Source: Candidatus Woesearchaeota archaeon CG10_big_fil_rev_8_21_14_0_10_45_16 (lineage in GTDB: Archaea > Nanobdellota > Nanobdellia > Woesearchaeales > GW2011-AR9). From it: a stretch of DNA of 64,000 nt. Each line of letters opens with the position of its first letter. The stretch's first letter is position 1. A program made the position numbers and the translations under genes. Of the stretch, positions 44,028-46,502 are shown one piece after another. Location: assembly GCA_002762785.1 (NCBI GenBank), contig PCXY01000004.1, positions 62,001 to 126,000 of the forward strand, written 5' to 3'. The notes below the pieces were generated by a model, which searched no databases, was not told where the DNA came from, and saw only the letters and a program-made list of their open reading frames with translations.

Positions 44028-44154
44028 GCGAGGGTGGGAGAGCGGTCAAATCCGCTGGCTTGAGGCAATGAAAGGTCAACCTTTGTGGTTTGCGCCTGCG
44101 TTACAAACGGCCAGTCCCTTAGTGGGTACGCGTGTTCGAATCACGTCCCTCGCA
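44028..44154 (+). tRNA. tRNA-Leu(GAG) with intron
   Basis: GCGAGGG/CCCTCGC acceptor; CTGGC-TTGAGG exon boundary, intron about 44066-44108, GCCAG; long variable arm TCCCTTAGTGGGTAC; T arm GCGTG-TTCGAAT-CACGT. Confidence 0.88.
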
Positions 44155-45279
44155 TCACTTTTCAAATGGCTCCTGTTGTCACTCTAGAGAAACAAAAGAT
44201 TTATAAAGATTTCTCAATCTTGATCTCTAATGTTTGATGAACATATAAATATGCTCTTGTTTGGAAAAACAGGAGAAGATCGTAGTAATGGAAAACTTCT
44301 TGCTAGTATCCTTAGTGTTGGTGCGCAAGTTTCTGGATCATGTACTAATCATGAAGTATTTATCAGTCCTCTTCCAAAGGAAGAACTATTTGCTTTATAT
44401 GAAAGACGAATGGCTTGTTTGCAAGACTATCAGATTGTTCGAGAAGCTTACGAAGACGAGCATCCGAGACCAGAAGTTGGGAGCTACTTGGAGTGGAATC
44501 GCCAAATAGATCAAGCTTTAGATTCTGCTCATGGACACCTGCTTTCTATTGTTCGTAATATTGACCGTGAGATTAATGAAGAAAAAGGAAAAATATTTGA
44601 TGATATCGTTCCACAATTTAGGTCAACAGTAGCTAATATGCGGAAAGTCGTTCTCTTGGATTTGATTGCTGCCAATTGTACTAAGGTCAGAGAATTATCA
44701 TCAGCTAATGCCGGTTTGGATAGAGCTTTAAAAAAATTCTTAACATCATATCAAAAAGCAGTTGCTGGTAGGGCAACGTTAGATGACATTGATGGTGATG
44801 AACTTGAGGTTCTTGAGCGGACCTTTTTCCAAGGGGTAGGCCGTCATTTCAAAAAAGCTGGCGGCAATAGCGATGATTTGGCAAGCGACCTCTTTTTTGG
44901 AAGGATAGGCAGTGATTATTTTAGCGGCCCCAGAGAATTTTTCCATTATTTTGACTGGTCTGCTGCGCGCCGGGGCGAGATTTTGTGTAGTGCATCCGGG
45001 ATGATGAAAGGAGAATATGCTTTTATGAATAATGGTTATGGATTCTCATTTAAAGATTTACCAAGCGACTCAGCTCCTACAGACAACTTATTCGCAGCCC
45101 TTACAGGAAACTTATTCGGGCTTGTTTATTTCAGGATGGAAGTTGCCTCAAGGTATAACTCTTGCGTTGAACCTGTTTTTGGCAGAATAAGAGAGATGTA
45201 TAATGTTGTCCCTGCTGAAGATCTTCGACGTTTGGTCTAAAATGGTTAATTAGTGTTCAGGATCCCTCGCATCACTTTT
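44146..45279. mobile_element. Putative single-gene integrative element at tRNA-Leu 3' end, flanked by 17-bp direct repeats
   Basis: TCCCTCGCATCACTTTT at 44146-44162 (tRNA 3' end) and at 45263-45279; 1,117-bp repeat period; enclosed A/T-rich orphan ORF 44230-45240; GTGTTC also precedes both copies. Confidence 0.7.
44230..45240 (+). CDS. 336-aa orphan protein carried in the tRNA-Leu insertion
   Basis: Own TATA (GATTTATAAAG about 44198), leaderless-like start; no recognisable domain or integrase motif. Confidence 0.7.
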   Translation: MFDEHINMLLFGKTGEDRSNGKLLASILSVGAQVSGSCTNHEVFISPLPKEELFALYERRMACLQDYQIVREAYEDEHPRPEVGSYLEWNRQIDQALDSAHGHLLSIVRNIDREINEEKGKIFDDIVPQFRSTVANMRKVVLLDLIAANCTKVRELSSANAGLDRALKKFLTSYQKAVAGRATLDDIDGDELEVLERTFFQGVGRHFKKAGGNSDDLASDLFFGRIGSDYFSGPREFFHYFDWSAARRGEILCSASGMMKGEYAFMNNGYGFSFKDLPSDSAPTDNLFAALTGNLFGLVYFRMEVASRYNSCVEPVFGRIREMYNVVPAEDLRRLV

Positions 45280-45601
45280 TCTTTCTTTTGTTCCAGGGTT
45301 CTTCCAACACAGAAACGATATGCTCAAAATATTTCTCTTGTCGCTGTACGTAATGGCCAATGACTGTGCCGATCAGATAGAGCATGATGGCGATGCCGAA
45401 AACAGCATAGAAAGGTGTAATTATCTTGGTACTGGTATGTGTTGGCACCAGATCACCGTAACCGACAGTCGTCAAGGTCATGGAAGAAAAATAGAACGCA
45501 TCTACATAAGACCAATCTTCCAGATGGTGGAAATAGATCGTGCCAAAGCTGAGAAGGATTATTGTTAGGACGAGGGAGTAGGTGATTCTTCTGGCTAGCA
45601 T
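45272..45601 (-). CDS. Two-TM potassium channel subunit
   Basis: Selectivity filter MTLTTVGYGDLVP between two TM segments; stop codon lies inside the 17-bp repeat. Confidence 0.88.
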   Translation of the reverse strand: MLARRITYSLVLTIILLSFGTIYFHHLEDWSYVDAFYFSSMTLTTVGYGDLVPTHTSTKIITPFYAVFGIAIMLYLIGTVIGHYVQRQEKYFEHIVSVLEEPWNKRKKK

Positions 45602-45692: not shown

Positions 45693-46502
45693 ATGTCACA
45701 ATGGCAAATAACTCAGGAAGAGAAGAAACTTCCCGTCTTAAAGAATCCTTTGTTCATCGAGGGTCTTCCAGGTATCGCTAACGTCGGCAAGATTGCCACC
45801 GATTTCCTCATAGAAGAATTGAACGCTAAAAGATTATACTCCTTCTTCTCGTACCGTTTCCCGCATTCTGTCTTTGTCGGAGAAAATAACCTTATCGAAA
45901 CTCCAAAGATCGAGATCTATTACAAAGCGTTCGGCAAGAACAGCAAGAAACGTGATCTGCTTATCCTTACTGGCGATATCCAGCCGATCGATGAAGAAAG
46001 CTGCTACACTTTCTGTGAAGAGGTCCTGAAGGTCGCTCTGCAGTTCAGATGCAAAGAGATGATCACCACCGGCGGTATCGGTCTGCAGAACATTCCCGAC
46101 GAGCCCAAGGTGTATTGCACCAGCAATGATGCAGGTCTTTTCAAAGACTACACCAAGAAAGGCTTAGGGGTGGAGAAAAATATCTTCGGTGTCGTCGGCC
46201 CGATCATCGGTGTCTCTGGCGTCTTGTTGGGATTAGGCAAGAAACGCGGTGTCAAGGCCGTCTCTCTGTTGGCGGAAACGTTTGCTCACCCGATGTATCT
46301 TGGGGTGAAAGGCGGCAAGGAAATACTGAGCGTCATCGAGAAAAAATTCAGATATGGTGTTGACCTTAAGAAAGTTTCCCAGGAGATCGTGGAGATCGAA
46401 AAACAGCTGATGAAGAAGACCAAAGAATGGGCCACCGAAGCGGTTTCCCATTCCCGAGCCGGCGCAAAACCGAAAGCGAAAGAAGTCAGCTACATCGGTT
46501 AA
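45693..46502 (+). CDS. PAC2-family protein (proteasome assembly chaperone-like)
   Basis: PLFIEGLPGIANVGKIATDFLIEEL, ILTGDIQP, MITTGGIGL; start refined to ATG 45693. Confidence 0.88.
   Translation: MSQWQITQEEKKLPVLKNPLFIEGLPGIANVGKIATDFLIEELNAKRLYSFFSYRFPHSVFVGENNLIETPKIEIYYKAFGKNSKKRDLLILTGDIQPIDEESCYTFCEEVLKVALQFRCKEMITTGGIGLQNIPDEPKVYCTSNDAGLFKDYTKKGLGVEKNIFGVVGPIIGVSGVLLGLGKKRGVKAVSLLAETFAHPMYLGVKGGKEILSVIEKKFRYGVDLKKVSQEIVEIEKQLMKKTKEWATEAVSHSRAGAKPKAKEVSYIG

Follow-up and report, generated by a model that had tools for sequence, protein, structure and literature searches.

A single-gene segment between tRNA 3'-end repeats at tRNA-Leu(GAG) of a woesearchaeal genome, and similar integrase-less segments at tRNAs of relatives

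In the window analyzed here, a stretch of 64,000 nucleotides in contig C4 of an archaeal assembly (1.18 Mb, 45% GC) whose host is placed in a Woesearchaeota family, a segment of 1,117 bp, comprising one gene and one copy of a 17-bp repeat, lies directly behind an intact tRNA-Leu(GAG) gene. The reading to which we give roughly even chances is that this segment is a passenger cassette, inserted at the 3' end of the tRNA gene by site-specific recombination, with the recombinase either acting in trans or since lost. Counted for this reading are the unique 17-bp repeat situated on the tRNA 3' end, the low GC3 of the enclosed ORF and its absence in relatives, the recurrence of such segments in other genera, and the finding of displaced tRNA 3' ends on the downstream side only; counted against it are that no exact empty allele, second copy or circle was seen, that the repeat is short, and that its extension into the T-arm is not significant.

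The tRNA-Leu(GAG) locus and its insert

The tRNA-Leu(GAG) gene (positions 44028-44154, + strand; C4:106028-106154), which contains a 43-nt intron and would be the insertion target in its intact, regenerated form, is missed by the default tRNA scan of the window and was found when ARAGORN was run on the whole assembly in a mode that permits introns. The exact direct repeat TCCCTCGCATCACTTTT occurs on the + strand at 44146-44162 (attL-like), where it consists of the last 9 nt of the tRNA gene and 8 nt downstream, and again at 45263-45279 (attR-like), where it would be the displaced tRNA 3' end and includes the TGA stop codon of a convergent K+-channel-like gene outside the insert (Ion_trans_2 match, 45272-45601, - strand). 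An earlier note, made from the letters of the window, had described both the repeat and its overlap with the channel stop codon, and both were confirmed: these two copies are the only ones in the whole 1.18-Mb genome, with 0 on the other strand, compared to a chance expectation of ~7e-8 per 1.2 kb and 1e-4 per genome. A direct repeat that overlaps a tRNA 3' end, with an intact tRNA at one border, is the anatomy of a tRNA-integrated archaeal element. The same note had suggested, from GTGTTC near both copies, a degraded copy of the T-arm and 3' end; for the right copy this was not borne out, as an anchored alignment of the 52 nt before the right copy with the tRNA is no better than that of random genome windows (p ~0.2). 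No folding was found at the right end of the segment (z 0.09), and the right copy has no intron-type 3' boundary (relatives read GAAAG/TCACG..., the slash marking the boundary). The tRNA-Leu gene is complete before the segment begins, and the segment is therefore not a T-loop intron, which would lie inside the tRNA and be spliced at the T loop.

The insert has a single gene, a 336-aa ORF (44230-45240, + strand), which is preceded by the TATA-box-like sequence TTTATAAA (44200-44207, + strand) ~26 nt upstream of its ATG. Given the geometry of archaeal promoters, this placement suggests a leaderless transcript, as a prediction from the sequence. The composition of the ORF is foreign-looking: its GC is 0.40, and its GC3 of 0.30 falls at the 4th percentile of the genome (mean GC3 0.50 in 455 long frames), compared to 0.50-0.61 for its neighbour genes. 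The earlier statements that the ORF is more A/T-rich than its neighbours, has its own TATA and shows no recombinase motif thus all hold. No match to it was found in Pfam, NCBIfam, PHROGs, PADLOC or PDB, and it bears no recombinase signature; homologues are likewise absent from its own genome, from 392 relatives, and from GTDB contigs, viral contigs, phages and plasmids, while 382 genomes of the phylum gave nothing convincing (one weak 54-aa match, located on a stretch with a stop). A structure-based identity was sought and discarded, as AlphaFold gave a poor model from the single sequence (mean pLDDT 42.5) and the Foldseek matches to it are meaningless (E >= 2).

Comparison with relatives shows that the locus itself is conserved and its content variable. 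The order of GatD, tRNA-Leu(GAG), the PAC2-like gene (45693-46502, + strand; the conserved right neighbour of tRNA-Leu in the family and the anchor of the comparison) and a 665-aa gene is kept in most family members, and GatD-tRNA-Leu-PAC2 is kept in ~25 other genera, with the 336-aa ORF present in 0 of them. The situation that the earlier note held to be incompatible with an insertion, in which all relatives carry the ORF, with no empty allele and no repeat, is accordingly not what was found, as the number of searched relatives with the ORF is 0. In the empty-site comparison proposed at that time, the tRNA and PAC2 are separated by 62-96 bp without the ORF in G029, G023, G003 and G018, but the exact arrangement tRNA-TCACTTTT-channel was not found among the relatives, all of which are from other genera. 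The channel gene is also absent from the site in the relatives compared; with both it and the 336-aa ORF lacking there, the window differs from the shortest form of the locus by two gains. Elsewhere the tRNA-PAC2 gap reaches 5.7 kb and is filled by unrelated genes. In most genera these genes are without repeats, indicating that ordinary gene turnover occurs there too, and other intervals of the locus also vary, so that variable gene content alone is weak evidence. The idea that the gap is home to one gene family was dropped, since gap ORFs of different genera have no notable similarity. Neither an integrase nor viral or plasmid genes were found in the tRNA-Leu-PAC2 gaps of other family members (by reading of the loci, with Pfam run on most ORFs), and no integrase-bearing element related to the flanks of the segment was found among the family loci compared.

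Displaced 3' ends and gene-bearing segments at tRNAs of this and other genomes

The earlier note had regarded a one-gene element of this kind as unusual. The case is not isolated, as at least three further genera have similar integrase-less gene segments, of 0.58-0.75 kb, at the 3' ends of tRNA genes. In G033 the tRNA is tRNA-Leu, as in the window, and is followed by 604 bp with a DUF7557 and PemK toxin pair, the far end of which is TGTTCGAACCTCGTCCCTCGCA, a tRNA 3' end located directly before the PAC2 promoter. Relatives of the PemK protein (identity up to 74%) are scattered through the order, as would be expected for a gene that moves horizontally. In G009 a tRNA-Ser is followed by one 153-aa ORF (an ORFan) with its own TATA-like box and by the 3'-end copy AACT-CCCCCAGGGCCA, for a total of 583 bp; in G018 (L246/L305, G018:C20) a tRNA is followed by ~0.75 kb containing a LAGLIDADG homing-endonuclease ORF and the 3'-end copy TCTCGGCGGGGCCA. 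For each of these three pairs the local alignment of the tRNA with its 3'-end copy beats all 2000 shuffles. None of the three segments encodes a recombinase, and no inner-end motif common to the four gene-bearing segments is visible. Coding sequence accounts for 1011 of 1117 bp in the segment with the 336-aa ORF, 535 of 604 bp in G033 and 462 of 583 bp in G009, a near-complete fill more in keeping with cassettes than with random remnants. Since like inserts hold a PemK toxin pair and a homing endonuclease, we would bet, by analogy, that the 336-aa ORF is a selfish or defence-type accessory gene.

Duplicates of the 3' end of a tRNA, located downstream of that tRNA, occur widely among these archaea. 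They were counted by searching for 12-nt tRNA 3' ends (<=1 mismatch) within 1.5 kb of tRNAs. A first set, composed of two whole genomes and the family tRNA-Leu loci (69 tRNAs), gave 7 downstream copies (7/69 tRNAs), with 0 upstream and 0 on the opposite strand; a second set, drawn from other loci and overlapping the first in part, comprised 62 distinct tRNA 3' ends and gave 11 downstream copies at 9/62 tRNAs and 0 in the controls. The genomes are metagenome-assembled, and the rates are approximate because ARAGORN misses multi-intron tRNAs. Most of the downstream copies lie 40-130 bp from the tRNA and enclose no gene. They are usually 12-16 nt long, and a strict 17-nt search (<=3 mismatches) matches tRNA-Ala only.

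Several other features were observed at the same kind of place. In the genome of the window, strong hairpins whose 3' arm is a copy of the 3' end of the preceding tRNA lie directly downstream of tRNA-Phe (C2:100042-100095, z -5.9), tRNA-Ala (C3:533188-533251, z -5.6) and tRNA-Ser (C4:164230-164290), and in relatives the loci L254, L240 and L036 contain one or two further tRNA 3'-end copies in a row. T-loop introns occur in the tRNA-Leu genes of G017, G016, G022, G024, G012, G002, G026 and G036. Partial second copies of tRNA-Leu lie behind the intact gene in L193 (G050), L185 (G036) and L194 (G049), and in G050 the displaced copy keeps a T-loop intron that the intact gene is without. In G002 (L239) the segment between tRNA-Phe and a second 3' end holds an inverted copy, identical at 37/37 nt, of the tRNA-Leu T-loop intron (L202), a match that suggests that this intron moves as DNA.

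The earlier note had also called for a search of the genome for a trans-acting integrase and for other copies of the element. Candidate enzymes were found, but the repeat copies number only the two already described. The genome encodes three tyrosine recombinases (Phage_integrase matches, contigs C2 and C5), all closest to the XerA model; none is near a detected tRNA and none is linked to the tRNA-Leu site. One of them (C2:77880-78908), above the cut-off of XerA_Arch ('tyrosine recombinase/integron integrase'), adjoins a region at C2 ~62,570-76,260 (L080:2570-16256) in which at least 12 copies of a repeat with the core AAGCATAACGATGTTATGCTT and a hairpin are spaced 0.3-3.4 kb apart between ORFs, an arrangement that resembles an integron-like cassette array. 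The tRNA-Leu segment contains no copy of this repeat, and kinship of the 336-aa ORF with the cassette gene beside the recombinase was rejected for lack of similarity. At C2:166913-171525 a 206-aa tyrosine recombinase, apparently N-terminally short, lies within a few kb of restriction-like ORFs and a DNA cytosine methyltransferase, assignments that were made by eye.

Origin of the segment

Integration at the 3' end of a tRNA gene characteristically leaves an intact tRNA with a displaced 3' fragment behind it (PMC8371274; PMC4383910), and archaeal att sites of no more than 8-14 bp are known (PMC8371274). For the 1,117-bp segment, a small circular or carrier DNA would have recombined, through a 17-bp tRNA-3'-end site of its own, with the chromosomal tRNA-Leu(GAG), thereby restoring the tRNA on the left and pushing the original 3' end, fused to the channel stop codon, to the right. 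Since the cassette encodes cargo only, the recombinase would have been supplied in trans, by another element or by a resident Xer-type enzyme. A tyrosine recombinase as the enzyme, its action in trans and a circular intermediate are all three inferred; the lean toward trans action, over loss of the enzyme, reflects the small size of the four segments, each from a different genus and almost wholly occupied by intact genes, and the fact that the site yielded no form with an integrase. The integrase-less insertion at the tRNA 3' end proposed in the earlier note is the best reading, and mobility as a one-gene non-autonomous element is a proposal.

The same borders would result if a tRNA-targeting plasmid, virus or island had arrived with its own integrase and later deletions had spared a single gene between attL and attR. 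It is standard for islands and proviruses to occupy tRNA 3' ends (PMC8371274; PMC4383910), and integrase loss is common; however, the 1.1 kb contain no integrase, viral or plasmid gene, whole or partial, none was found in the gaps of other family members (Pfam on most ORFs), and the three independent look-alikes are of similar size and each filled by one intact gene or gene pair. This history is considered less likely than the cassette. Still less probable is an origin in the turnover of the tRNA gene itself, in which an old T-loop intron or a partial tRNA duplication left a displaced 3' exon and the ORF came between later, with no cassette recombination. The T-loop introns of tRNA-Leu in eight relatives, the intron-bearing 3' ends found displaced beyond a complete tRNA in G050 (in G018 together with a LAGLIDADG ORF) and the tandem 3'-end copies that follow many tRNAs at 40-130 bp are all consistent with such turnover, whereas the right copy in the window has neither an intron 3' boundary nor a hairpin and maintains 8 bp of identity beyond the tRNA, and insertion of the ORF with its promoter would still be required. 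Finally, entry of the ORF by end joining or transposition, with the 17-bp match arising by chance or as a short repair duplication, appears very improbable: repeats of >=17 bp at a spacing of 0.2-3 kb are found in 66 cases in the genome, mostly in repetitive coding regions or one repeat array, but this repeat runs into the 3' end of a tRNA, on the side and strand where it would be expected, and copies in the lineage lie downstream by 7:0 and 11:0 relative to controls.

Read as a passenger cassette, the segment has several known counterparts. The integrase-less ssrA islands of Dehalococcoides, an example of cis-mobilizable elements (CIMEs) that are proposed to move with neighbouring elements, likewise hold cargo between attL/attR-like repeats of an RNA-gene 3' end without an integration module; unlike the segment, which has one gene and no partner at its site, they carry many genes and stand in tandem with integrase-bearing relatives having the same att repeat (PMC3146451). 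Att-like flanks without recombination or transfer genes, which characterize CIMEs, are present in the segment. Archaeal elements of the SSV and pNOB8 types share with it the target at the tRNA 3' end, the restored tRNA and the displaced 3' fragment downstream, and its 17-bp repeat is within their known range of 8-243 bp, but the segment has no integrase, whole or partial/split, and is limited to 1.1 kb and one gene (PMC8371274). In Caldiarchaeum, a tRNA-Thr disrupted by a mobile element, a case that links tRNA intron gain to integration, also has a tRNA fragment and an intact tRNA flanking an insert; there, in contrast, the fragment comes from the 5' part of the tRNA, and a recombinase is predicted in the insert of 1.8 kb (PMC3293823). 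Integron gene cassettes, known in Archaea, are single-gene units without a recombinase, as is the segment, and are moved by a tyrosine recombinase in trans (PMC9668308), whereas the ends of the tRNA-Leu segment are tRNA sequence and lack the array repeat of C2. No attC-like site was recognized at its end, which is unfolded and without that repeat, and it is located on C4, apart from the array and recombinase on C2. The segment works much as CIMEs and integron cassettes do, without demonstrably belonging to either kind. Elements with att flanks and no integrase are known; the recurrent single-gene archaeal form, which was not found in the open-licence papers searched, appears to be new.

A broader proposal, which we advance tentatively and at less than even chances, is that Woesearchaeota carry minimal cassettes (one accessory gene or a toxin pair, without a recombinase) that enter various tRNA 3' ends via a recombinase acting in trans, and that these correspond, on a tRNA basis, to integron cassettes and have a relation to the mobile T-loop introns and short hairpin copies at the same places. 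Integration scars, T-loop introns and displaced 3' ends of tRNAs meet at one set of loci, and through this linkage the proposal that archaeal tRNA introns originate from integration becomes testable. Should the segments be mobile, some DPANN archaea, whose genomes are close to 1 Mb, would gain single accessory genes at tRNA ends without an integrase for each, by a cheap route of gene capture beside integrons.
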